DNA of 64,000 nucleotides from Neotamlana sargassicola. GTDB lineage: Bacteria; Bacteroidota; Bacteroidia; Flavobacteriales; Flavobacteriaceae. Location: the NCBI RefSeq assembly GCF_020523965.1, contig NZ_JAJAPX010000002.1:62001-126000 (forward strand). The letters run 5' to 3'. The translations under genes and the position numbers were made by a program. A model generated the notes under the pieces. That model was not told the DNA's origin and ran no database searches. It worked only from the letters and a program-made list of their open reading frames with translations. This document shows, piece by piece, positions 1,503 to 33,441 of the stretch (position 1 is its first letter; each line of letters opens with the position of its first letter).

Positions 1503-3536
1503 ATGAACAAGAAATTAGATCAACAAGCAGCAGATAATATACGTGCACTTGCCGTTGCTATGGTAGAAAAAGCAAATTCTGGACACCCGGGAGGACCAAT
1601 GGGTGGCGCAGATTTTATGCACATTTTATATTCGGAGTTTTTTAATTACGATCCTTCTGATATGGAATGGCCATTTAGAGATCGCTTTTTTATGGATGCA
1701 GGGCATTTATCAACATTAATGTATGCACAATATTATTTATTGGGTAACTACTCAAAAGAAGATGTTTCTAATTTCAGACAATGGGGTTCAATTACTCCAG
1801 GTCACCCAGAGGTCGATGTAAAACGTGGTATAGAAAACACGTCGGGACCACTAGGTCAAGGACACACCATGGGTGTTGGTGCAGCAATTGCTACTAAGTT
1901 TTTAGCAGCACGTTTTGGCGATTGGATTAACCATAAAGTTTATGGTTTTATTTCTGATGGTGGTATTCAAGAAGAAATATCGCAAGGTGCAGGTAGAATT
2001 GCAGGGCATTTAGGCTTAAGCAATTTTATTATGTTCTTCGATTCTAACGATATTCAATTATCAACGTCTACAGACGAGGTAACTACCGAAGATACAGCCA
2101 TGAAGTATGAAGCTTGGGGCTGGAAAGTAGTAACTATTGATGGTCACGACCACGATGCTATACGTAAAGCATTAACCGATGCTAATAACGAAACCGAGAA
2201 ACCAACTTTAATTATTGGTAAAACCATAATGGGTAAAGGGTGTGTAACTTCAAATGGCGATATGTACGAAGGTCATTGCGAATTACACGGTAAGCCAATT
2301 GGAGCAACCGGAGCCGATTACCATAAAACATTAGCTAATTTAGGTGCTGATGCTGAAAAACCTTTCGATATTTTTAGTGATGTTGAAGCGTTTTACAGAG
2401 ATTTAATCGTAGAAAAAACAAAACAAGCAGCAGCTAAAAAAGCGGAGATAGCTGCTTGGAAACAAGATAATTCAGAATTAGCCGAGAAATTAGACTTTTT
2501 CTTATCTGGAAAATTACCAGAATTAGATTTTGCTTCAATAGAGCATAAAGCCGGTTTAGCTACCAGAGCCGCATCATCAAATGTGTTAGCTTATTTAGCT
2601 GAAAATGTAGAAAATATGATTGTGTCTTCTGCAGATTTATCAAATTCAGATAAAACCGATGGTTTCTTAAAGAAAACATCTGCATTACAAAAAGGCGATT
2701 TTAGCGGTTCGTTTTTACAAGCTGGTGTTGCCGAATTAACTATGGCTTGTATTGCCAACGGTATTGCGTTACACGGTGGTGTAATTCCTGTTGTGGCAAC
2801 CTTCTTTGTATTTTCAGATTACATGAAACCAGCCATTCGTTTAAGTGCAATTCAAGAATTACCAGTAAAATACGTTTGGACGCACGATGCATTCCGTGTA
2901 GGAGAAGATGGGCCAACACACCAGCCAATTGAGCAAGAAGCTCAAATTCGTTTGCTAGAAAAAATGCAAAACCATAGCCATAAGCAAAGTTTCTTAGCCT
3001 TACGTCCTGCAGATTCTGCAGAAACTAGCGTAGCTTGGAAAATGGCTTTAGAAAATACAGATACGCCTTCTGGTTTAATTTTATCGCGCCAAGGTATAAA
3101 AGACGTTCCTGCTGAAGGTTCTCGTTACGAAGCCGCTTTAGCTGCCGAAAAAGGAGGTTATTTGGTAAAAGAAGTTGAAAATCCAGATGTTGTACTTGTG
3201 GCTAACGGATCGGAAGTTTCTACTTTAATCGCGGCTGCCGAAATTTTAGAAGCAGACCATAATTTAAAAGTGAGTATTGCTTCTGTAATTTCTGAAGGTT
3301 TATTTAAGCAACAACCTAAAGAATACCAAAATAGTGTTATTCCTAAAAACAAACCACTATTTGGTTTAACTGCTGGTTTACCTGTAAATTTAGAAGGTTT
3401 AGTTGGTGATGCAGGAAAAGTGTTTGGTTTAGAGCATTTTGGTTATTCTGCACCAGCCTCTGTACTTGATGATAAATTTGGATTTACCGGAGAGAAAGTA
3501 AGCAAAGAAGTATTAGCGTATTTACAAACAAAATAA
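1503..3536 (+). CDS. tkt: Transketolase
   Basis: A thiamine-diphosphate enzyme that moves two-carbon ketol units in the non-oxidative pentose phosphate pathway. All three domains are present in a single 677-residue chain. Visible marks are the N-terminal GHPGGPMGGADF segment, an SDGGIQEE...FDSNDIQ version of the ThDP/metal-binding GDG-N motif near residues 151-183, and the central THDAFRVGEDGPTHQPIEQ transketolase signature. The GDG motif starts with Ser rather than Gly, a small variation. Only 11 bases separate it from transaldolase, its pathway partner, so the two are very likely co-transcribed. Confidence 0.96.
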   Translation: MNKKLDQQAADNIRALAVAMVEKANSGHPGGPMGGADFMHILYSEFFNYDPSDMEWPFRDRFFMDAGHLSTLMYAQYYLLGNYSKEDVSNFRQWGSITPGHPEVDVKRGIENTSGPLGQGHTMGVGAAIATKFLAARFGDWINHKVYGFISDGGIQEEISQGAGRIAGHLGLSNFIMFFDSNDIQLSTSTDEVTTEDTAMKYEAWGWKVVTIDGHDHDAIRKALTDANNETEKPTLIIGKTIMGKGCVTSNGDMYEGHCELHGKPIGATGADYHKTLANLGADAEKPFDIFSDVEAFYRDLIVEKTKQAAAKKAEIAAWKQDNSELAEKLDFFLSGKLPELDFASIEHKAGLATRAASSNVLAYLAENVENMIVSSADLSNSDKTDGFLKKTSALQKGDFSGSFLQAGVAELTMACIANGIALHGGVIPVVATFFVFSDYMKPAIRLSAIQELPVKYVWTHDAFRVGEDGPTHQPIEQEAQIRLLEKMQNHSHKQSFLALRPADSAETSVAWKMALENTDTPSGLILSRQGIKDVPAEGSRYEAALAAEKGGYLVKEVENPDVVLVANGSEVSTLIAAAEILEADHNLKVSIASVISEGLFKQQPKEYQNSVIPKNKPLFGLTAGLPVNLEGLVGDAGKVFGLEHFGYSAPASVLDDKFGFTGEKVSKEVLAYLQTK

Positions 3537-21650: not shown

Positions 21651-22577
21651 ATGAAAGGACCATTATTTTATTCTAAAATTTTACTTTTTGGTGAATACGG
21701 AATTATAAAAGATTCCAAAGGTTTATCTATACCATATAATTTTTACAATGGTGCTTTAAAAAAGAGCGAAAACCCAAGTGAAACGGCAATAAAATCGAAC
21801 GAAAGCTTAAAAAAATACGTAGATTATTTAGCAGCAATAAATCCAGAATTAGTTGTTTTTGATATTGAAACACTAAAATCTGATGTTGCAGATGGCATGT
21901 ATTTCGATTCTTCAATTCCGCAAGGGTATGGTGTTGGTAGTAGCGGAGCGCTAGTAGCTGCGATTTACGATAAATACGCTAAAAACAAAATAACAGTTCT
22001 TGAAAATTTAACTAGAGAAAAATTATTAGAATTAAAAGCTATTTTTTCTGAAATGGAATCGTTTTTTCACGGAAAATCGTCTGGTCTCGATCCTTTAAAT
22101 AGTTATTTAAGCATTCCTATTCTTATAAATTCTAAAGATAATATTGAAGCAACCGGTATTCCTGCACAACAAAATGGTAAAGGTGCTGTGTTTTTAATAG
22201 ATAGTGGTATCGTTGGCGAAACAGCGCCAATGGTTAGTATTTTTATGGAAAACATGAAGCAAGAAGGTTTCCGTAATATGCTTAAAGATAAGTTTATAAA
22301 ACATACCGATGCTTGTGTTGAAGATTTTTTAAGCGGAAACATAAAATCGTTATTCAGTAATACAAAACAACTATCAAAAGTGGTGTTAAGCCATTTTAAA
22401 CCTATGATTCCTAAGCAATTTCATGAGCTTTGGAAAAAAGGTTTAGAAACCAACGAGTATTACTTAAAACTTTGTGGTTCTGGTGGTGGTGGCTATATTT
22501 TAGGGTTTACCGAAGATATAGAAAAAGCAAAACAATCTTTATCAAATTATAAACTAGAAGTGGTTTACAATTTTTAA
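21651..22577 (+). CDS. GHMP kinase, probable mevalonate kinase
   Basis: A 308-residue GHMP kinase with KILLFGEYGI at the start (substrate loop), the phosphate-binding IPQGYGVGSSGAL at residues 89-101, and the C-terminal motif LCGSGGGGYILGF. Its place after mvaD makes it the likely mevalonate kinase or phosphomevalonate kinase of the pathway; the sequence alone cannot separate the two. TAATTTTG at 21620-21627 might give it a secondary promoter. The end of the gene is followed by a short palindromic repeat. Confidence 0.88.
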   Translation: MKGPLFYSKILLFGEYGIIKDSKGLSIPYNFYNGALKKSENPSETAIKSNESLKKYVDYLAAINPELVVFDIETLKSDVADGMYFDSSIPQGYGVGSSGALVAAIYDKYAKNKITVLENLTREKLLELKAIFSEMESFFHGKSSGLDPLNSYLSIPILINSKDNIEATGIPAQQNGKGAVFLIDSGIVGETAPMVSIFMENMKQEGFRNMLKDKFIKHTDACVEDFLSGNIKSLFSNTKQLSKVVLSHFKPMIPKQFHELWKKGLETNEYYLKLCGSGGGGYILGFTEDIEKAKQSLSNYKLEVVYNF

Positions 22578-22587
22578 TTAAATTTTC

Positions 22588-22614
22588 TGTCACCCTGAGC
22601 GTAGTCGAAGGGTC
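22588..22614. repeat. Short palindromic intergenic repeat, CACCCTGAGCGTAGTCGAAGGGT type
   Basis: Arms ACCCT (22592-22596) and AGGGT (22609-22613) enclose GAGCGTAGTCGA. This is a sequence type I recognise as scattered in many flavobacterial genomes, often paired with GTCATGCTGAA...TTCAG units such as those near 25400. It sits between the kinase and prenyltransferase genes. Confidence 0.7.
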
Positions 22615-22634
22615 AAAACATTTTTAACTTCTTT

Positions 22635-23537
22635 ATGCTAAATAGAAGACAGAAACATATTCTACTTAAGTTTTTTAGTATGTTTTCTGTAGTGCGTGGT
22701 TACAATATTTTGGTTATTGTAATAGCACAATACTTAACAGCAAATTACATATTAGCTTACAATTTACCAATTCGCCAAGTTTTACTAGATATTAATTTGT
22801 TTTTACTTGTGTTAGCCTCGGCAGCAACTATAGCCGGAGGTTACATTATAAATAACTTTTACGACTCCGAGAAAGATTTAATTAACAAGCCAATAAAATC
22901 GAAACTAGATAAATTGGTAAGTCAAAATACAAAGTTGTCATTTTACTTTGTACTTAATTTTTTAGCTGTTGTTTTTGCAAGTTATGTGGCATTTAATGCT
23001 GTACTCTTTTTTGCATGTTACATATTTGCCATTTGGTTGTATTCGCATAAATTAAAAAAACTACCAATAGTTGGTAATCTAGTGTCTGCAATACTAACTA
23101 TTTTGCCATTTTTTGCCATATTTATGTATTATAAAAATTACGAAACAGTAATTTTTGTACATGCAACATTTTTGTTTTTAATAATATCTATGCGGGAACT
23201 GACAAAAGATTTAGAAAATATAAAAGGTGATTTACTTCAAGATTACCACACCATACCCGTTGTATATGGCGAAAAGGCATCAAAAATAATGCTTGCTTTT
23301 CTAGCTGTTTTAACGTTAGTGCCAACCTATTTACTACTTTTTAAATACCAAATAGGATATATGAATTTGTATTTTTATGCTAGCATTTTTTTATTGATTG
23401 TCTTCGTTGCAATGCTTTGGTACTCAAAAGATAAGTTGCATTATTTAATACTTCATAATATTTTAAAAATTATATTATTAACAGGAGTTTTGAGTATATT
23501 ATTAATAGACGTAAGTGTTATTTTAAACAGAATTTAA
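22635..23537 (+). CDS. UbiA-family prenyltransferase, GGGP geranylgeranyltransferase-like
   Basis: A 300-residue polytopic membrane enzyme with about eight hydrophobic spans. The two Asp-rich prenyl-diphosphate motifs are NNFYDSEKD (residues 73-81) and DLENIKGD (about 191-198). The family is annotated in flavobacteria as geranylgeranylglycerol-phosphate geranylgeranyltransferase, an archaeal ether-lipid enzyme name; whether ether lipids or a different prenylated product is made here is unknown. Neighbouring mevalonate genes fit supply of the prenyl donor. Confidence 0.85.
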   Translation: MLNRRQKHILLKFFSMFSVVRGYNILVIVIAQYLTANYILAYNLPIRQVLLDINLFLLVLASAATIAGGYIINNFYDSEKDLINKPIKSKLDKLVSQNTKLSFYFVLNFLAVVFASYVAFNAVLFFACYIFAIWLYSHKLKKLPIVGNLVSAILTILPFFAIFMYYKNYETVIFVHATFLFLIISMRELTKDLENIKGDLLQDYHTIPVVYGEKASKIMLAFLAVLTLVPTYLLLFKYQIGYMNLYFYASIFLLIVFVAMLWYSKDKLHYLILHNILKIILLTGVLSILLIDVSVILNRI

Positions 23538-23544
23538 TGGTTTT

Positions 23545-23647
23545 GGGCGTTTTTACAACTTTTTATGAAGTTGTAAACCGCGCTTTCGCAAGTCGCTGTG
23601 CCAAATACATTTTGCACGAGCTCCAACAATTGCTCAATCGCTAACGC
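23545..23647 (-). repeat. Flavobacterial intergenic repeat, copy A, inverted
   Basis: Read on the minus strand it starts GCGTTAGCGATTG (23647-23635), runs through GCGACTTGCGAAAGCGCGG and ends with ACGCCC (23550-23545). An internal hairpin has arms TTTACAACTT (23552-23561) and AAGTTGTAAA (23568-23577). The same block order occurs in copies at 25495 and 33345. Confidence 0.65.
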
Positions 23648-23692
23648 AAAAAAATCGTAAATTAAAAAGTCTAAATCGTTAATTTTAAAGTA

Positions 23693-23700
23693 TATCTTTG
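23693..23700 (+). promoter_or_regulatory. -7 element of the pseudouridine-synthase-like gene
   Basis: TATCTTTG matches TAnnTTTG and lies 18 bases before the ATG, implying a very short leader. No convincing -33 box. Confidence 0.5.
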
Positions 23701-23718
23701 CACAAAAATTAAAATACT

Positions 23719-24591
23719 ATGAGCAGGAACCAAGGCAGAGGCAGTAATAAAAATACATCAAGAGGTGGAAGCAGTTCTAATAAACGAACTAGTTATTCAC
23801 GAGGTAATTCACCAATTAAAAATCAAGGTGGTTTTACAAAGCCCTCGAATAGCACAAAACCAAAAGCGCCAAAAAAATCTAACCCAGAGGAAGTTAGGTT
23901 AAATAAATATATTGCTAATTCTGGTATTTGTTCTCGTAGAGAGGCCGATGTGCATATAGCCACAGGTTTAGTAAGTGTAAATGGTAAGGTTGTAACCGAA
24001 ATGGGTTACAAAGTAAAACCAGGAGACGAGGTGCGTTACGATGGTTCGCGTGTAAACCCAGAACAAAAAGCTTATGTGTTATTAAACAAACCAAAAGGTT
24101 TTGCAACCACAAATAGCGAAGGAAAGGGCAGAACAGTAATGGATTTAGTTGCCAATGCTACAAATGCTAATATTAGGCCAATTGGTCGTTTAGGTAGAAA
24201 TTCTAAAGGCTTAATATTGTTTACTAACGATGAGGCTGTGGTAAAAAAGTTTACCAATTCTAAAAATGGTGTACCTAGGCTATTTCATATAGAATTAGAT
24301 AGAAATTTAAAACATGAAGATTTTAAAAAGATTCAAAGCGGTTTTAAAGTTGATGGTTCACTTATTGAAGTAGAGGAGATTAGCTACATCGATGGATCAA
24401 GCAAAAAGGAAATTGGTTTAAAAATAAAAAATACAGGAAATACTATTATCCGAACCATTTTCGAGCATTTTAGTTATGATATAGTAAGTATAGATTGTGT
24501 AGCTATAGCACATTTAACTAAAAAAGATATTCCGCGAGGACATTGGAAGCATTTAACTACTCAAGAGCTTAATAATTTAAAGATGCTTTAG
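23719..24591 (+). CDS. RsuA/RluB-type pseudouridine synthase homologue lacking the catalytic Asp
   Basis: A 290-residue protein. Residues 1-55 are a low-complexity Ser/Gly/Asn/Lys tail, probably RNA-binding. An S4 domain follows (EEVRLNKYIANSGICSRREADVHI, residues 57-80), then the synthase fold. Active members carry GRLD, where Asp attacks the uridine; here residues 154-164 read PIGRLGRNSKG, so the Asp is Gly at position 159. The later conserved segment is also altered (IIRTIFEHFSYDIVSIDCV, normally VRRxFEHxGYxVxxLxRV). It may be an RNA-binding, non-catalytic paralogue; a sequencing error in one codon cannot be excluded. Confidence 0.85.
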   Translation: MSRNQGRGSNKNTSRGGSSSNKRTSYSRGNSPIKNQGGFTKPSNSTKPKAPKKSNPEEVRLNKYIANSGICSRREADVHIATGLVSVNGKVVTEMGYKVKPGDEVRYDGSRVNPEQKAYVLLNKPKGFATTNSEGKGRTVMDLVANATNANIRPIGRLGRNSKGLILFTNDEAVVKKFTNSKNGVPRLFHIELDRNLKHEDFKKIQSGFKVDGSLIEVEEISYIDGSSKKEIGLKIKNTGNTIIRTIFEHFSYDIVSIDCVAIAHLTKKDIPRGHWKHLTTQELNNLKML

Positions 24592-24665
24592 TGAGATTCC
24601 GTAAAACAGTCTCGGCTATAGGTAGTTGCATTGGTTAGTGCTTAATTTTGCAAGTACATGCCAAA

Positions 24666-24689
24666 CTGAAAATCTGCGAGGATTTTCAG
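24666..24689. repeat. Strong hairpin in a relic intergenic repeat
   Basis: Arms CTGAAAATC (24666-24674) and GATTTTCAG (24681-24689) form a perfect 9-pair stem with a 6-base loop. It lies 3' of the toxin gene (minus strand), within about 140 bases that show no gene. No T-tract follows on either strand, so it is more likely part of a dispersed repeat than a terminator. Confidence 0.5.
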
Positions 24690-24739
24690 AAGTAGGCGAT
24701 AACGAGCAATTACTTATAGTCATGGTAGGTAATCAGGCT

Positions 24740-25057
24740 TTATTTAGTTCGTTTCATTTTCGGTGGATTTTGTCGAGTATCAAAAACATCAGCAATTTTT
24801 ATAAATCCGTTTTGTTCATCAACCGAATATATCAGTTTGTAGTTTTTGAAAACCAAATAACGATATTGTATTTCTCTATCTTTAAGTAATTCCTCTTCTT
24901 GTCCTATGAAAGACGATTTAATTAATTTTTCCGATTCTTTAATTATTCCAGTTACAATTTTAGTAGCAACTTTTAAACTAGCTTTCTTTTCGTAATATTC
25001 ATAAATTTCATCAAGTTGAGTTTCCGAAAAGTCAGACCAAATAATTTTAAAATTCAT
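24740..25057 (-). CDS. RelE/ParE-family toxin
   Basis: A 105-residue basic protein starting FKIIWSDFSETQLDEIYEYYEKKAS, the standard N-terminal helix of RelE/ParE toxins, with the strand-rich C-terminal REIQYRYLVFKNYKLIYSVDE and VFDTRQNPPK segments. The latter ends the family (D/T-R-P). RelE members cut mRNA on ribosomes and ParE members poison gyrase; which applies here is unclear. Its start overlaps the antitoxin stop by one base, as in co-translated pairs. Confidence 0.88.
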   Translation of the reverse strand: MNFKIIWSDFSETQLDEIYEYYEKKASLKVATKIVTGIIKESEKLIKSSFIGQEEELLKDREIQYRYLVFKNYKLIYSVDEQNGFIKIADVFDTRQNPPKMKRTK

Positions 25058-25290
25058 TATTCGTATTTGGCCAAAAGTTCAGAACTTGTTTTAAATCGAT
25101 TGTTTTTGAAATCCGATTCTGATTTGTCAATTCGTCTGTTTAACTCATCAATACTCATAGGCTTAATTAGCCTTTCGTCAGGAGTGTCTTTTTCCTTTTT
25201 CAATATTTTCTCAAGCTTGGAAATTGCTTCTTCGTTTTGAAGTTTTAGGAATTCTTGAATAAATTCTATTTTTCGAGCTTCTAAATTCAT
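25057..25290 (-). CDS. Antitoxin of the RelE/ParE pair
   Basis: A 77-residue, highly charged, helical protein (NLEARKIEFIQEFLKLQNEEAISKLEKILKK), followed by a segment with DERLIKPMSIDELNRRIDKSESD that is usual in small Bacteroidetes antitoxins. No helix-turn-helix is obvious, so autoregulation would depend on a different DNA-binding form. It lies directly upstream of the toxin. Downstream-independent expression cannot be judged. Confidence 0.85.
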   Translation of the reverse strand: MNLEARKIEFIQEFLKLQNEEAISKLEKILKKEKDTPDERLIKPMSIDELNRRIDKSESDFKNNRFKTSSELLAKYE

Positions 25291-25394
25291 TTCGAGTTTC
25301 TTTTTATCAAAGATACTAAATTATCAAATTCAATCAATATCGTTCTTGGTTTAACGAATCTTTCAGCTTGTTGCCAACTTCGGAATAATATTGA

Positions 25395-25470
25395 TTTGTC
25401 ATGCTGAATTAATTTCTTTATTTCAGAATTAATATAAATTAAAGATTCCGAAACAAGTTCGGAATTACAA
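25395..25470. repeat. Degenerate GTCATGCTGAA / CCGAAACAAGTTCGG intergenic repeat
   Basis: TTGTCATGCTGAA begins near 25396, and a perfect hairpin with arms ATTCCGAA (25445-25452) and TTCGGAAT (25458-25465) closes it. The pattern resembles the mirrored repeat pairs common in flavobacterial intergenic DNA. It lies upstream of the toxin-antitoxin genes. Confidence 0.6.
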
Positions 25471-25494
25471 TAAAATTTAATTAAATCCCTAAAC

Positions 25495-25590
25495 CCGCGT
25501 TAGGGATAGCAGCAGAAAGCCCACAGCAACCCCATGGTAATTGGGTTGCGAGGACTTGTCGCGTATAGCCCGACCCTTGTGGTAACGCCC
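25495..25590 (+). repeat. Flavobacterial intergenic repeat, copy B
   Basis: Starts CGCGTTAGGGATAGC and ends GGTAACGCCC (to 25590), the same order of blocks as copies A and C. An inner hairpin has arms GCAACCC (25526-25532) and GGGTTGC (25543-25549), and TATAGCCCGACCC lies near the end. It lies about 50 bases upstream of the polyamine promoter. Confidence 0.65.
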
Positions 25591-25636
25591 AATAACATAC
25601 GTGTTTAAATTTTTTTTCATTTTTTTTAAAAAAATA

Positions 25637-25666
25637 TTTGCTGTATTAAAAAATAAATTACATTTG
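25637..25666 (+). promoter_or_regulatory. Promoter of the polyamine operon
   Basis: TTTG (25637-25640), 18 bases, then TACATTTG (25659-25666) is a near-ideal Bacteroidetes promoter. Transcription should begin about 25672, leaving a 257-base leader to the arginine decarboxylase start. Confidence 0.8.
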
Positions 25667-25703
25667 CCGCACTTATTAGCTGAACAATTTGAAACCTGTT
25701 TCT

Positions 25704-25856
25704 ATGTTCGGGCTTTTGAAAATTAGGAAGTCATACTCAAAAGCAGCTTACAGATTAAGCAACCGAATTTTAAAGCTAACTTCCGTTTCTCCAATTTATG
25801 CTGTACAGCATGAGTATGCCTTTGTGCCAACCACACAGAGCCAGTTTCGTATTTGA
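25704..25856 (+). CDS. Small upstream ORF, candidate leader peptide of arginine decarboxylase
   Basis: A 50-codon ATG-to-TGA frame beginning about 32 bases after the predicted transcription start, in the leader of the arginine decarboxylase gene. The peptide starts MFGLLKIRKS, has eight basic residues (K6, R8, K9, K13, R17, R21, K24, R49) against one acidic, and ends VPTTQSQFRI. In DNA this AT-rich a 50-codon stop-free frame is not expected often. No family is recognised. The frame lies in a region that can also fold into a pseudoknot-like RNA. It may be an arrest peptide sensing arginine or polyamines, in the manner of speFL in E. coli, or a true small protein. Confidence 0.55.
   Translation: MFGLLKIRKSYSKAAYRLSNRILKLTSVSPIYAVQHEYAFVPTTQSQFRI
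25711..25818 (+). promoter_or_regulatory. Pseudoknot-like structured leader RNA
   Basis: P1 pairs GGCTTT (25711-25716) with AAAGCT (25772-25777), and AAAATT (25719-25724) with AATTTT (25766-25771), around a 2-base bulge. A hairpin GCTTA/TAAGC (25746-25750 / 25756-25760) sits inside. GGAAGT (25726-25731) in the P1 loop can pair with ACTTCC (25779-25784) just outside P1, and CATACTCA (25732-25739) with TGAGTATG (25811-25818), giving crossing helices. A short hairpin TGTAGT/ACTACA (25884-25889 / 25893-25898) lies nearer the start codon. Structure is by eye only and overlaps the 50-codon frame. Confidence 0.45.
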
Positions 25857-25928
25857 TATTATTTTGTTCTTATTGGCTTAACATGTAGTTAAACTACAAT
25901 TCTCAATTTTAACATTTTAATAGAATAA

Positions 25929-27326
25929 ATGAATACTAAATATATTGATTTAATCAATCAAACTTTTGATTTTCCTCAAGAGGAATTCGCTTTAAAAAAT
26001 AAAACATTGGAGTTTCATGGTATTAACCTTATGGAACTTGTCGAGCAATATGGTGCACCGTTAAAATTCACCTATTTGCCACAAATATCGAACAATATTC
26101 AACGTGCAAAACACTGGTTTGCTAAAGCTATTGAAAACAATAATTATGCTGGTAAATACAACTATTGCTATTGTACAAAAAGTTCGCATTTTAAGCATGT
26201 TTTAAATGAAGCCTTAAAAAACGACATCCATATTGAAACCTCGTCGGCTTTCGATATTGATATTGTAGAATCGTTAAAGGCTGAAGGCAAAATTACAGAC
26301 GAAACCTTTGTAATTAGCAATGGCTTTAAACGTGCACAATACGTAACTAATATTGCTAGATTAATAAATAATGGGCATAAAAATGCTATTCCTATTATTG
26401 ATAATTATGAAGAAATAGACTTATTATCTGAAGAAATTAACGATACCTTTAAAGTAGGCATTCGTATTGCTTCGGAAGAAGAGCCTAAGTTCGAGTTTTA
26501 TACCTCACGATTAGGAATTGGCTACAAAAACATTGTACCTTTTTATAAAGAACAAATAAAGGATAATAAAAAGGTTGAGCTTAAAATGCTACACTTTTTT
26601 ATAAACACAGGCATTCGCGATAACGCGTATTACTGGAACGAACTTACAAAATGTTTAAAGGTTTATACCAGTTTAAAAAAGATTTGCCCAAGTTTAGATA
26701 GTTTAAATATTGGAGGTGGTTTTCCTATAAAAAACTCTTTAGCTTTCGAGTTCGATTATGAATATATGGTCGATGAGATTGTAAACCAAATTAAACTAGT
26801 TTGCGATGAAGAAGGCGTAGATGTACCAAACATTTTCACCGAGTTTGGTAGTTTTACCGTTGGCGAAAGCGGTGGTGCTATATACGAAGTATTGTACCAA
26901 AAGCAACAAAACGATCGTGAAAAATGGAACATGATTAACTCATCTTTCATTACAACATTACCAGATACCTGGGCCATAAATAAACGTTTTGTTATGTTAC
27001 CAGTAAACCGTTGGCAAGATAGTTACGAGCGTGTTTTATTGGGTGGTTTAACTTGCGATAGTGACGATTATTACAACAGTGAACAGCACATGAATGCTAT
27101 TTATTTGCCAAAATATAATAAAGACAAACCGTTATATATTGGTTTTTTTAACACTGGCGCATACCAAGAAACTATTGGTGGTTTTGGCGGGTTACAACAC
27201 TGCCTAATACCATCGCCTAAACATCTTTTAATAGATAGAGATGAAGCGGGTAACTTACAAACAAAATTATTTAGCGAACAACAAAAAAGTGAAGACTTAC
27301 TTAAAATATTAGGTTATGCAAAATAG
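25929..27326 (+). CDS. speA: Biosynthetic arginine decarboxylase, PLP fold III
   Basis: Converts arginine to agmatine, first step of putrescine synthesis by the agmatine route. The 465-residue length is short beside the 630-residue E. coli SpeA. The fold-III PLP enzyme shows the PLP-lysine region YNYCYCTKSSHF near residue 80, the phosphate-binding glycine loop LNIGGGFPIKN (about 260), and the dimer-interface catalytic C376 in GGLTCDSDDYY. The family also includes close relatives of ornithine/diaminopimelate decarboxylases. Agmatinase follows with an 11-base overlap, so agmatine is the expected product. Regulation by the leader is likely. Confidence 0.9.
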   Translation: MNTKYIDLINQTFDFPQEEFALKNKTLEFHGINLMELVEQYGAPLKFTYLPQISNNIQRAKHWFAKAIENNNYAGKYNYCYCTKSSHFKHVLNEALKNDIHIETSSAFDIDIVESLKAEGKITDETFVISNGFKRAQYVTNIARLINNGHKNAIPIIDNYEEIDLLSEEINDTFKVGIRIASEEEPKFEFYTSRLGIGYKNIVPFYKEQIKDNKKVELKMLHFFINTGIRDNAYYWNELTKCLKVYTSLKKICPSLDSLNIGGGFPIKNSLAFEFDYEYMVDEIVNQIKLVCDEEGVDVPNIFTEFGSFTVGESGGAIYEVLYQKQQNDREKWNMINSSFITTLPDTWAINKRFVMLPVNRWQDSYERVLLGGLTCDSDDYYNSEQHMNAIYLPKYNKDKPLYIGFFNTGAYQETIGGFGGLQHCLIPSPKHLLIDRDEAGNLQTKLFSEQQKSEDLLKILGYAK

Positions 27327-28251
27327 AACCTACGCAGGTATTCCAGAAGAATACGCAAAATTAGAGCAAGCGAAAATTGTTTTAATTCCTGTGCCTTACG
27401 ATGGTACAAGTACATGGCAAAAAGGAGCAGATAAAGGTCCAGAGGCATTTTTAGATGCTTCTGAAAATATGGAACTTTTTGATATTGAAACCAGAACCGA
27501 AGTTTACAAACAAGGTGTGTTTTTAGCGCCTGCAGTTACCGAAAATAGCTCACCAGAAGCTATGGTTGAAGCTGTGCATGAAGCGACTAAAAAATACATT
27601 AAAAAAAATAAGTTTGTAACCCTTTTTGGTGGCGAGCATTCTATTTCTATTGGTACAATTCGTGCGTTTAACGAAATGTATAATAACCTAACCGTTTTAC
27701 AGTTAGATGCTCATGCCGATTTACGCGAAAGTTACGAAGGTTCAACCTGTAACCATGCATGTGCGGTTTACGAGGCTAGCCAAACTACCAATTTAATTCA
27801 GGTTGGTATTCGCTCAATGGATGTTATTGAAACTACCGTTTTAAACGAAGACAAAACCTATTTTGCACACGATATGGCTGTTGATGATTCTTGGATGGAT
27901 TCGTCAATAGACCAAATGACAGATAATGTGTTTATAACTATAGATCTTGATGCTTTCGATCCGTCAATACTACCAAGTACAGGAACTCCAGAACCTGGCG
28001 GTTTATTATGGTACGAAACCTTAGATTTTTTAAAGCAAGTATTCGAAGAAAAAAATGTAGTAGGGTTCGATATTGTTGAACTTTGCCCTAATAAAAATGA
28101 AAAATCTTCAGATTTTCTTGCAGCAAAACTATATTACAAAATGCTTAGCTATAAGTTTCAAAACGATGATTTTGATGATGATTTTGATAATGCCAACAAT
28201 AACAAATCAGTAAATAAAACCACTAAATTTAAAGATAACGATGCGTACTAA
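27316..28251 (+). CDS. speB: Agmatinase
   Basis: Hydrolyses agmatine to putrescine and urea. The 311-residue ureohydrolase has all manganese-binding motifs: GGEHSIS, QLDAHADLRE and ITIDLDAFDPS. Residues about 285-311 form an extra Asp/Asn-rich tail (FDDDFDNANNN) not needed for catalysis. It overlaps arginine decarboxylase at its start and the deoxyhypusine-synthase-like gene at its end, each by 11 bases, showing tight translational coupling. Confidence 0.94.
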   Translation: MQNRTYAGIPEEYAKLEQAKIVLIPVPYDGTSTWQKGADKGPEAFLDASENMELFDIETRTEVYKQGVFLAPAVTENSSPEAMVEAVHEATKKYIKKNKFVTLFGGEHSISIGTIRAFNEMYNNLTVLQLDAHADLRESYEGSTCNHACAVYEASQTTNLIQVGIRSMDVIETTVLNEDKTYFAHDMAVDDSWMDSSIDQMTDNVFITIDLDAFDPSILPSTGTPEPGGLLWYETLDFLKQVFEEKNVVGFDIVELCPNKNEKSSDFLAAKLYYKMLSYKFQNDDFDDDFDNANNNKSVNKTTKFKDNDAY

Positions 28252-29215
28252 AGGTCCAATATCTCAATTTATAGAACACAACTATTTGCATTTTAATGCA
28301 GCAGCTTTGGTTGATGCAGCAAAAGGTTACGAAGCTCAATTAGAAAATGGGGCTAAAATGTTAGTATCGCTTGCAGGTGCTATGAGTACTGCCGAACTTG
28401 GTAAAAGTTTTGCAGAAATGATTCGTCAAGATAAAGTCCAAATCATATCATGTACAGGTGCAAATTTAGAAGAAGATATCATGAATTTAGTGGCGCATTC
28501 GCATTATAAACGTGTGCCAAACTATCGCGATTTAACACCGCAGGAAGAATGGGATTTACTTGAAAAAGGATTAAATCGTGTTACAGATACTTGTATTCCA
28601 GAAGAAGAAGCTTTTCGTCGTTTACAAGAGCATATTTTTAAAATTTGGAAAGATGCTGATGATAAAGGTGAACGTTATTTACCACACGAGTACATGTACA
28701 AAATGTTACTTTCTGGTGTGTTAGAGCAGTATTACGAAATAGATTTAAAAGATTCGTGGATGTACGCAGCAGCCGAAAAAAACCTGCCAATTGTTTGCCC
28801 AGGTTGGGAAGACAGCACCATGGGGAATATTTTTGCAAGCTACGTTTTAAAGGGCGAGCTTAAAGCAAGTACCATGAAATCGGGTATTGAGTATATGACG
28901 TTTTTAGCAGATTGGTATACCGATAATTCAACAAATGGTATAGGTTTCTTTCAAATAGGTGGCGGTATTGCAGGCGATTTTCCTATATGTGTAGTGCCAA
29001 TGTTATACCAAGATATGGAACGTACCGATACACCATTCTGGAGTTATTTTTGTCAAATAAGCGATTCAACAACGAGTTATGGTTCGTATTCGGGAGCTGT
29101 ACCAAACGAAAAAATAACTTGGGGTAAATTAGATATCGATACGCCAAAATTTATTGTAGAAAGTGATGCAACTATTGTTGCGCCTTTAATTTTTGCTTAT
29201 CTTTTAGGTCTGTAA
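28241..29215 (+). CDS. Deoxyhypusine-synthase-like aminobutyltransferase, probable homospermidine synthase
   Basis: A 324-residue member of the deoxyhypusine synthase fold. The catalytic lysine of the family is present as K296 in EKITWGKLD (eukaryotic enzyme: WGK). NAD-binding and spermidine-binding segments such as SLAGAMSTAELG, IISCTGANLEED and FFQIGGGIAGDFPI are also visible. Bacteria lack eIF5A, so the acceptor cannot be eIF5A; transfer of an aminobutyl group to putrescine would give homospermidine. The gene's place after speA-speB supports that. Flavobacteria are known to contain homospermidine as a major polyamine, though I cannot show the activity here. Confidence 0.85.
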   Translation: MRTKGPISQFIEHNYLHFNAAALVDAAKGYEAQLENGAKMLVSLAGAMSTAELGKSFAEMIRQDKVQIISCTGANLEEDIMNLVAHSHYKRVPNYRDLTPQEEWDLLEKGLNRVTDTCIPEEEAFRRLQEHIFKIWKDADDKGERYLPHEYMYKMLLSGVLEQYYEIDLKDSWMYAAAEKNLPIVCPGWEDSTMGNIFASYVLKGELKASTMKSGIEYMTFLADWYTDNSTNGIGFFQIGGGIAGDFPICVVPMLYQDMERTDTPFWSYFCQISDSTTSYGSYSGAVPNEKITWGKLDIDTPKFIVESDATIVAPLIFAYLLGL

Positions 29216-29247
29216 ATTAGATCAATCTATCTAAATTTTTAAAAAAC

Positions 29248-29559
29248 ATGAAAAATAGAAACGATAACTTAAAACGTGTGATAGTTGATTTTAAAAAACT
29301 AACACCAGAAATTTTAGCTTTACTTGTTGAAAAATATCCCGATGGTTATGATGATGATCATGTTATTTCGTTTAGAAATCAACATAACGAAATTATTGAA
29401 GCCGTAGAGGTTACAACAGAGGATACTAAATATTTGGTTAAAGTAAGTTCTAAGCTTGCGGTTACTATGGAAAACTATGATGAAGACGATTATGACGATT
29501 TCGATAGTGACGATCCAGAGGCAGTACAACCTCCAGATACGGAAGATACAGACGACTAA
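29248..29559 (+). CDS. Small acidic protein of the polyamine operon
   Basis: A 103-residue cytoplasmic protein of no known family. The N-terminal half (KRVIVDFKKLTPEILALLVEKYPDGY) is helical, followed by a beta-rich part, and a C-terminal tail almost entirely Asp/Glu (from about residue 78). It is 32 bases after the deoxyhypusine-synthase-like gene and 17 bases before the next small gene, so it is in the same transcript. An acidic tail could bind the polyamine product; this is inference. Confidence 0.75.
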   Translation: MKNRNDNLKRVIVDFKKLTPEILALLVEKYPDGYDDDHVISFRNQHNEIIEAVEVTTEDTKYLVKVSSKLAVTMENYDEDDYDDFDSDDPEAVQPPDTEDTDD

Positions 29560-29576
29560 TCACAAATAAATATATT

Positions 29577-29798
29577 ATGAGAACAGCTGTTTTTAAATCT
29601 TACGAAAACGGTTATTACAATTTTTGGTTTGAAAATGGAGAAGAATTAGCTTTTGAAGATGTACACCCTAGGGTTTTAAAGCAATTCGATTTAAAAAATG
29701 ATGAAAGTTTAATAGACAAAGACTTTAAAATAACATTTATTGAAGAAGACGATGGTGATGATGTTATTTATATTGTACAAAGCCTAAAACCACTATAA
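29577..29798 (+). CDS. Small hypothetical protein, paralogue of the secreted one downstream
   Basis: A 73-residue cytoplasmic protein. Its second half (QFDLKNDESLIDKDFKITF...EDDGDDVIYIVQSLKPL) matches the C-terminal half of the 115-residue protein encoded at 30741 (SFDLNSDKLIGTKFKITY...EEEINTIKKLQKL), so the two are duplicates of a shared domain, one cytoplasmic and one exported. It lies 17 bases after the acidic small protein. Function unknown. Confidence 0.72.
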   Translation: MRTAVFKSYENGYYNFWFENGEELAFEDVHPRVLKQFDLKNDESLIDKDFKITFIEEDDGDDVIYIVQSLKPL

Positions 29799-29817
29799 AA
29801 GGTATTTAAAAAAATAA

Positions 29818-30603
29818 ATGTACACCGTAGTTGCTTACCAAGTAGCTAGTGCTATCAATATAAAATCTAGCAAACAACAGTTGCCGTGGCAGCTGTTGTT
29901 TCAAGATAGCGACGAACTGTATTATACCAGTTCACCAAACAAATTTATTTACATATTTCAGTATGGCATGGTTAGTTTTTTTAACATGACTAGTACTGAA
30001 ATAAACCATGCATTGCAAAAACTTAAACCGCAATGCACAAACTATTTTTCAGAAAAATTATCAGATTCGGTAGAAGTTGTTATTAAACCAAACATCTTAA
30101 AGGTGGAGTTCGATAATGTTATTTTACCTAATTTAGACGAAGAAATGATTCGTTTAGTTATGCTAAACGCGTCGCAATCTGTAGCCTTAAACCGTTATAC
30201 CGAAATAACCGAAGAGTTGTTAGCCGAAACAAATAAACATACTTCATATTTAGAAGCTAACGGTAAACTCGATATTTCTGGTAACAAGTTAAAGCGTTTT
30301 ATAGGCAAGGTTTTAAATATTAAAAACAAGATTTCTGAAAATTTGTACATTTTTGATTCGCCCGAAATTACTTGGGAAAAAGAAGAATTTAACAGATTAA
30401 ATCAGGAATTAAAACAAGCCTTCGATTTAAAAGATAGATATCGCGTAATTCACGATCGTATTGAAATTATAAAAGAAAACCTCGAGCTTTTTAAAGATAT
30501 AATGGACCATAACGAAAGCAGCCGTTTAGAATGGATTATTATTATTTTAATTGTAATTGAGGTTATCGATTTATTTATAGCAAAACTTTCAAATATTATT
30601 TAA
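29818..30603 (+). CDS. DUF155/RMD1-family membrane protein
   Basis: A 261-residue protein of the RMD1/RMND1 (Sif2) family. Visible marks are the N-terminal IFQYGMVSFFNMT strand, LYIFDSPEITWEKEEFNRLNQEL, LKDRYRVIHDRIEIIKENLELFKDIMDHNESSRLEW and a final membrane span IIIILIVIEVIDLFIAKL at about 240-257. Eukaryotic relatives sit in mitochondria and affect translation; the bacterial role is unknown. It lies 19 bases after the small paralogue gene. The C-terminal anchor places it in the inner membrane. Confidence 0.88.
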   Translation: MYTVVAYQVASAINIKSSKQQLPWQLLFQDSDELYYTSSPNKFIYIFQYGMVSFFNMTSTEINHALQKLKPQCTNYFSEKLSDSVEVVIKPNILKVEFDNVILPNLDEEMIRLVMLNASQSVALNRYTEITEELLAETNKHTSYLEANGKLDISGNKLKRFIGKVLNIKNKISENLYIFDSPEITWEKEEFNRLNQELKQAFDLKDRYRVIHDRIEIIKENLELFKDIMDHNESSRLEWIIIILIVIEVIDLFIAKLSNII

Positions 30604-33324: not shown

Positions 33325-33344
33325 ACTTTAATTTTTGTTGTTAG

Positions 33345-33441
33345 CCGCGTTAGCGATTGCAACGGTTAGCTTTTGGCGAGGCGTGCATCGAGCCAAAACT
33401 ATTAGTGTAAAGCGCGACCCCGAAGCTTCGGGGTAACGTCC
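33345..33441 (+). repeat. Flavobacterial intergenic repeat, copy C
   Basis: Begins CCGCGTTAGCGATTGCAAC and ends GGGGTAACGTCC. It has hairpin arms TTTTGGC/GCCAAAA (33371-33377 / 33392-33398) and a second 18-base palindrome ACCCCGAAG/CTTCGGGGT (33417-33434). It lies between two genes that are otherwise in a tight leftward series. Confidence 0.7.

Follow-up and report, generated by a model that had tools for sequence, protein, structure and literature searches.

The window, a stretch of 64,000 nucleotides of Neotamlana sargassicola DNA, contains a polyamine operon in the order promoter, leader, speA, agmatinase, deoxyhypusine-synthase-like (DHS-like) gene and two small proteins. The features of the locus, with the evidence for each in brackets, are as follows.

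25637-25666, + strand: Bacteroidetes-type promoter TTTG-N18-TACATTTG (sequence; conservation of the TTTG position)
25673-25795, + strand: conserved structured RNA, covariance model R1 with 123 positions, overlapping the leader open reading frame (ORF) (covariation)
25689-25856, + strand: leader ORF of 55 codons with a TTG start and a TGA stop at 25854-25856 (conservation of start and frame, pN/pS of the tail)
25803-25856, + strand: ORF tail under peptide constraint, comprising the 17 final codons plus the stop, VQHEYAFVPTTQSQFRI-stop (pN/pS, codon-position entropy, relatives)
25857-25922, + strand: predicted stop-proximal stem, its 5' arm starting 1 nt after the stop (fold prediction and cross-species test)
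25929-27326, + strand: speA-type arginine decarboxylase, the presumed regulated gene (NCBIfam/Pfam profile matches)
27316-28251, + strand: agmatinase, speB (TIGR01230 above cut-off)
28241-29215, + strand: DHS-like enzyme (PF01916)
29248-29559, + strand: small acidic operon protein without Pfam or NCBIfam family

The best NCBIfam models for the product of 25929-27326 are PRK05354 and speA, each below its curated cut-off, and Pfam Orn_Arg_deC_N scores above its cut-off. No Pfam family was found for the second small operon protein (29577-29798). Among 249 genomes of the Flavobacteriaceae, a large family of marine bacteria, speA, with which polyamine synthesis begins, was detected in 190 (E ≤ 1e-100), and the named relatives include Bizionia, Lacinutrix, Olleya and Winogradskyella.

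Immediately 5' of the leader promoter lies a degenerate dispersed repeat (25485-25602) with 19 matches genome-wide, its own place included (E ≤ 0.001). Between a pseudouridine synthase gene and the speA leader, the minus strand at 24740-25290 encodes a ParE-type toxin (PF05016) and, upstream of it, a small partner for which no convincing family was found; together they are a probable toxin-antitoxin pair.

Conservation of the leader reading frame

The sequence-only reading had proposed a 50-codon frame running from an ATG at 25704 to the TGA at 25854-25856. This frame exists, with 8 Lys/Arg and 1 Glu. On its own it is unremarkable, with 57 ORFs of at least 30 aa overlapping 22000-30000, and it is conservation, not ORF length, that makes it more than chance. 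We gathered 138 places by homology searches, positioned them with the covariance model R1 and read the frame from the alignment; because these leaders share ancestry, the counts below are not of independent events.

The frame is open across 49 tested codons in 137 of the 138 places, and the other two frames in 0 and 3. An in-frame start codon is found in 137 of 138 places (TTG 84, ATG 44, GTG 9, CTG 0), the sole exception being L141, a second copy. In 136 of these 137 it is positioned exactly 18 bases 5' of the conserved FG codons; single-base length changes were observed 5' of the start codon. In the window this conserved initiator is the TTG at 25689, 15 bases 5' of the ATG at 25704. The latter is codon 6 of the longer frame and is not conserved, with Met in 37, Thr in 14 and Val in 8 of the 67 ORFs of the PTT class, and the start had to be moved. 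The length is exactly 55 codons in 71 of 134 ORFs, a set which leaves out L141, L144 (no start found), L145 and L148. Downstream of the leader, speA is present in 131 of 138 places; in the other 7 none lies within the fetched stretch.

Searched with tblastn, the 50-residue peptide had matches in 24 of 60 genomes at E ≤ 1, including its own genome. Among the 29 fetched loci speA is present in 18, and in those 18 the peptide match lies just 5' of it. A consensus-like query matched 134 of 249 Flavobacteriaceae genomes at E ≤ 0.05, where five near-threshold matches contain internal stops and are probably spurious. Thus the peptide is kept 5' of speA in relatives, and frameshifts and stops are almost absent, the two points on which the earlier proposal had staked itself. 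The leader peptide has no family in PHROGs, Pfam or NCBIfam, and tblastn of its consensus against plasmids gave no match. Start and frame are under selection of the translation type, and we conclude from their conservation that the short ORF is real, and longer than first described.

The promoter elements named in the sequence-only reading, TTTG at 25637-25640, an 18-base spacer and TACATTTG at 25659-25666, are all present. A TTTG ends 6-12 nt 5' of the RNA in 87 of 138 places, compared with 9-38 of 138 in shifted windows, and a strict TAnnTTTG occurs within 120 bases upstream in 38 of 138 places, compared with 3 in control windows. An E. coli-type promoter scan of 24500-27800 remained at chance level. 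The same region has no intrinsic-terminator-like site on the + strand, the 2 sites found both being on the - strand.

A structured RNA inside the reading frame

The R1 region covers approximately the first 33 codons of the ORF and folds around its start codon. Its elements are listed below, in each case with the type of support.

25676-25681, + strand: P0 5' strand UUAGCU, pairing with 25774-25779 (covariation)
25774-25779, + strand: P0 3' strand AGCUAA (as for the 5' strand)
25682-25701, + strand: hairpin Pa, GAACA/UGUUU, with the start codon in its loop (divergent set)
25706-25711, + strand: P1 5' strand GUUCGG, pairing with 25763-25768 (2 of 6 pairs changed on both sides)
25763-25768, + strand: P1 3' strand CCGAAU (as for the 5' strand)
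25712-25719, + strand: P2 5' strand GCUUUUGA, pairing with 25737-25744 (7 of 8 pairs changed on both sides)
25737-25744, + strand: P2 3' strand UCAAAAGC (as for the 5' strand)
25746-25760, + strand: hairpin P3, GCUUA/UAAGC (5 of 5 pairs changed on both sides)
25726-25730, + strand: pseudoknot 5' strand GGAAG in the P2 loop, pairing with 25780-25784 (covariation)
25780-25784, + strand: pseudoknot 3' strand CUUCC, directly after P0 (covariation)

The RNA covaries. For the whole fold with the pseudoknot, 96.5% of cells are paired in 95 model-fitted sequences and 19 of 35 pairs are changed on both sides, and none of 500 shuffles was as high on any covariation measure. In 30 sequences aligned without the model, 95.2% are paired and 15 of 35 pairs are changed on both sides; none of 500 shuffles was as high for four of five measures, and one was for the fifth. 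The pseudoknot is paired in 99.4% of cells, with 3 of 5 pairs changed on both sides. In a divergent set of 45 rows all five nested helices are changed on both sides, again with none of 500 shuffles as high; this alignment was model-fitted, was counted for the nested helices, and includes two chance rows. Two chance matches on L121 (E 0.21 and 0.29) stay in alignment A4 and are outside the ORF counts.

For P0, 2 of 6 pairs are changed on both sides in the 95-sequence set, in one cell each, and 6 of 6 in the divergent set. Pa is conserved without a compensatory pair in the 95-sequence set and has 4 of 5 pairs changed on both sides in the divergent set. Judged by covariation, P2, P3 and the pseudoknot can be taken as secure. 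The evidence for P0 and Pa, the helices that would enclose the start codon in a hairpin loop, comes mainly from the divergent set.

The succession P0-Pa-P1-P2-P3 is also the minimum-energy fold of the window's sequence alone, with ordinary stability (z -0.47). RNAalifold favours a rival pairing, GUUU/AAGC, which competes for the P0 and Pa strands; one may speculate that the two pairings are alternative states, suited to a switch. The unpaired islands UUUA (95-99%) and UCA (91-100%) are strongly conserved. A conserved structured RNA within the leader is also one feature of the riboswitch class. No Rfam family reached its gathering score in the leader, and none had an E-value below 2.6 in a permissive scan.

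R1 matches were found in at least 131 of 249 Flavobacteriaceae genomes, a lower bound because strict filters were used. At 66 of 80 named speA loci R1 matches with E ≤ 0.01, and in three of these cases the score is under 40 bits; marine relatives with the element include Olleya namhaensis and Winogradskyella. In the order sample R1 was detected in 5 of the 196 genomes listed, all five of them Flavobacteriaceae; many of the listed genomes are from a single genus (g134) without the element. In the class sample it was detected in 1 of 247 genomes, the window's own. The element is therefore likely, but not proven, to be absent outside Flavobacteriaceae, since the strict filters used for both samples lose weak matches.

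Selection on the peptide tail and the stop codon

Selection of the translation type extends to the tail. In 72 ORFs with P-T near the end, the tail has a pS of 0.748 and a pN of 0.251 (ratio 0.34, Nei-Gojobori), compared with ratios of 1.5 and 1.7 for the frame controls. The head of the same ORFs has a pS of 0.272 and a pN of 0.217 (Nei-Gojobori proportions). With pS so low in the head, its silent sites are held by the RNA, and the tail by the peptide. In two smaller peptide classes the tail ratio is 0.22 (six ORFs, frame controls 1.53 and 0.95) and 0.37 (eleven ORFs, frame controls 1.17 and 1.16). When all ORFs are pooled (n=132, with L142 left out as well), the pN/pS of the last four codons is just 0.51, because the peptide classes differ.

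The entropy at codon positions 1/2/3 was compared in 67 ORFs selected for P-T-T near the end. It is 0.63/0.59/0.60 in the first 33 codons and 0.70/0.59/1.31 in the last 19 codons including the stop. At the invariant tail codons Q, F, P, T and T, variation is confined to the third base; P-T-T served to pick this class, and Q and F did not.

The sequence-only reading had stressed a strongly basic peptide. The Lys/Arg count stands, but the weight placed on the basic N-terminal half does not: this half is mostly a by-product of the overlapping RNA, as its entropy is equal at all three codon positions. The clear peptide selection falls on the less basic C-terminal third, which adjoins the stop.

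In most relatives the leader peptide ends with I-x-[IV]-stop, and the window's own end is QFRI-UGA. The C-terminal classes SQHxYGFxPTTQSQIxI, YKLCFVPKxQYQIMI, RLAYWLNPIRI and LRKKVWALLPIIV have little in common beyond their three final positions. Of 134 leaders, 115 stop at UGA, 16 at UAA and 3 at UAG; the 48 window ORFs of at least 150 aa use UGA 4 times, UAA 38 times and UAG 6 times. UGA is read by release factor 2. Peptide selection beside the stop and a preferred stop codon, UGA, are features of the class of stop-codon arrest, and the conservation of tail and stop is what one would expect if the peptide halts the ribosome.

The spacer between leader and speA

From the leader stop to speA the distance has a median of 77 nt and is 50-100 nt in 115 of 130 places. 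These 130 spacers include those of the misread ORFs L145 and L148, and length limits left 111 for the folding test. In 102 of the 111 predicted folds, the 5' arm of a stem begins at a median of 5 nt after the stop and the 3' arm ends at a median of 8.5 nt before the speA start. The expected number of arm-to-arm pairs is 9.6, compared with 5.6 in local dinucleotide shuffles (highest of 40 replicate means 6.27). The mean energy z is -1.54; taken singly, only 36% of the spacers exceed 90% of the shuffles made from them. The predicted accessibility of the speA start, 0.625 compared with 0.655 in shuffles (replicate range 0.618-0.684), is not clearly lower. In the window, the 3' arm of the predicted stem ends 6 nt before speA, and the fold has a z of -1.27, with 18 of 200 shuffles folding as well. 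The predicted spacer stem is thus supported statistically across species.

Tail and RNA as separable modules

When the tables are compared, speA is present in 128 of 131 RNA-positive genomes and absent from three (G022, G084 and G241). At the three RNA-positive loci without speA (L083, L014 and L115) the RNA is followed by what looks by eye like the small acidic protein. L083 and L014, both of genus g20, keep the RNA and the frame and have lost the I-x-[IV] end, which fits a tail tied to speA and shows that the RNA is also used otherwise; L115 keeps an FRI end. In three genomes a second copy (L141, L142 and L143) precedes a small protein that resembles, by eye, the one at 29577-29798. Both small operon proteins may belong to the same response.

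At L142 (G180:C3) two leader copies stand back to back, at 2331-2453 (-) and 2684-2806 (+), one before speA and the other before a small protein gene on the opposite strand.

From the 62 speA genomes without a strict-filter R1 match, 32 RNA-negative leaders were fetched. In 18 of them an ORF of at least 30 codons stops at a distance of 50-110 nt 5' of speA, compared with a mean of 6.5 and a maximum of 13 in shuffles. An ORF ending with [IL][RQ][IV]-stop at this distance was found in 9 (mean of 100 shuffles 0.01), and the ending is missing from the other 23. Once the filters are relaxed, R1 matches four of the 32 (E ≤ 0.01), including L154, L157 and L183 of the nine, and L183 is a strong match with 64.6 bits. 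This leaves 28 leaders that R1 does not match at this threshold, and six of them have the [IL][RQ][IV] ending. Furthermore, the tail is retained at seven Arenibacter loci, with the exact sequence SQHDYFFIPTTEKQIIV at four. Of the seven, three have R1 scores of 30-38 bits and four have no R1 match. Tails without a clear R1 match and RNAs without speA show that tail and RNA are separable modules, and across these sequences the tail tends to follow speA.

Six speA leaders without a clear R1 match (L161, L162, L172, L174, L176 and L179) have in common, by eye, a stretch of roughly FLTNIYQSIFL close before speA, perhaps a further class of leader peptide.

Comparison with known leaders

Metabolite-dependent arrest at the stop codon of an upstream ORF (uORF) is known from arginine and polyamine genes, in the arginine attenuator peptide and the AdoMetDC MAGDIS uORF. 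Both are eukaryotic and repress rather than free the main ORF, and to our knowledge their sequences are unrelated to the leader described here. TnaC, which senses tryptophan, arrests at a UGA stop and controls Rho-dependent transcription termination. We know of no overlapping structured RNA of such a kind in TnaC, and no homology between TnaC and our leader peptide is apparent by eye. According to excerpts of PMC8429421, TnaC is a case in which a free amino acid stalls ribosomes on the leader peptide of a catabolic operon. Many Rfam riboswitches are likewise compact, multi-helix, pseudoknotted elements in metabolic leaders; here the body of the element is translated.

SpeFL, or orf34, resembles this leader in being a short ORF near the transcript start, 5' of a polyamine decarboxylase. 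In Salmonella the orf34 leader RNA hides the ribosome-binding site of the enzyme, and translation of the ORF helps to unfold it (both from excerpts of PMC6386406). The claim that the two sequences are unrelated was borne out by BLASTP, which gave no alignment at E ≤ 100. SpeFL has 34 codons and ends with FFNAR-stop, compared with 55 codons and QFRI-UGA here. Unlike in SpeFL, a pseudoknotted RNA is written inside the ORF, and R1 finds no match in the speF leader of E. coli. The leader-to-gene distance also differs, with the median of 77 nt here compared with 257 nt for speF in K-12 and roughly 380 nt for the Salmonella leader (positions +32 and +516; excerpts of PMC6386406). By analogy, the leader most likely works like SpeFL, without detectable similarity to it.

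A narrow search of the open-access literature found no description of the element or of the control of arginine decarboxylase in Bacteroidetes. The main text of PMC2864571 does not mention arginine or speA, and excerpts of PMC9723704 refer to a supplement with 64 structured 5' regions of a Flavobacterium. The best reading by comparison is that the leader belongs to no known family and is of the arrest-type leader peptide kind. Its new trait compared with the known peptides of this kind is that most of the ORF is covarying RNA.

Proposed mechanism and alternatives

Our preferred reading, to which we assign a probability of about 0.6, is that a composite leader with stop-codon arrest and a gating RNA controls the polyamine operon speA-speB-DHS-like. 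The element would probably be a two-part control switch hitherto undescribed. The transcript would begin a few bases 5' of the pseudoknotted RNA, which would present the weak start codon of the 55-codon ORF, mostly UUG, in its first hairpin loop. Initiating ribosomes would unfold the RNA while reading the leader ORF. In the presence of a signal, with arginine, agmatine or a polyamine as candidates, the C-terminal residues would delay release at the UGA, the final I-x-[IV] then lying at the P site and in the upper exit tunnel. The halted ribosome would cover the first dozen spacer bases, otherwise the 5' arm of the stem that reaches the speA start; the stem would open and speA would be translated. 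Since about 70 nt separate the end of the RNA from the stop, the RNA could refold behind the halted ribosome, which would limit further initiation.

In this scheme we infer the arrest, its ligand, the ON direction of control and the role of the RNA. The regulatory speA leader peptide of the sequence-only reading thus survives in its conservation, with another start codon and without the N-terminal emphasis, and arrest would be its presumed mode of action. The several motifs at the C-terminus are odd for a single arrest mechanism.

Tentatively, the element may even be a translated riboswitch, in which a ligand-binding pseudoknot gates its own start codon and the same stretch codes for an arrest peptide. 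If true, two signals, for example a product sensed by the RNA and arginine sensed by the nascent chain, would be combined before speA is made.

It is rather unlikely that the RNA is the only sensor, as a riboswitch or protein-binding site, with the ORF coupling its state to speA and the tail conserved for some other purpose, for instance ribosome release or reinitiation. The conserved unpaired islands UUUA and UCA would suit such a sensor, and the second copy L141 is a recognisable RNA with a broken ORF. However, the tail is under strong peptide selection and is still present where the RNA has degenerated or escapes detection, at the seven Arenibacter loci and in the 6 of 28 leaders.

Transcription attenuation, where translation of the leader or a stall within it would control Rho or RNA polymerase in the leader and not speA initiation, is unlikely. 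The spacer stem extends to the speA start, as needed for translational control, and the + strand of 24500-27800 lacks an intrinsic-terminator-like site; on the other side, the spacers are AU-rich, and translation of orf34 keeps Rho from terminating in the Salmonella speF leader (excerpts of PMC6386406).

A small protein acting in trans, for example on SpeA, beside an independent RNA control element could account for the stable length of about 55 codons, the clustered basic residues and the conserved C-terminus. We regard it as very improbable: the N-terminal part is shaped more by the RNA than by the peptide, the C-terminus swaps between unlike classes, and such a reading leaves the UGA bias and the spacer stem unaccounted for.

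Finally, a chance ORF or by-product of a conserved RNA leader, as the many short ORFs in the region might suggest, was rejected as having practically no probability, with 137 of 138 places open in one frame, no CTG start and third-base variation in the tail.

If the preferred reading, the composite leader, is correct, the element would represent at once a new family of structured RNAs and a new family of leader peptides that share the same bases, in about half of the sampled Flavobacteriaceae genomes (at least 131 of 249). An ORF that folds as a pseudoknot around its own start would be a clean natural case for the trade-off between RNA and peptide constraints. Moreover, peptide ends are swapped from lineage to lineage while the final residues and the UGA stay the same, which would provide many natural variants for finding the features sensed by the ribosome.

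Elsewhere in the window, a known flavobacterial RNA, Flavo-1 (RF01705), was detected at 33339-33423 with 45.7 bits.
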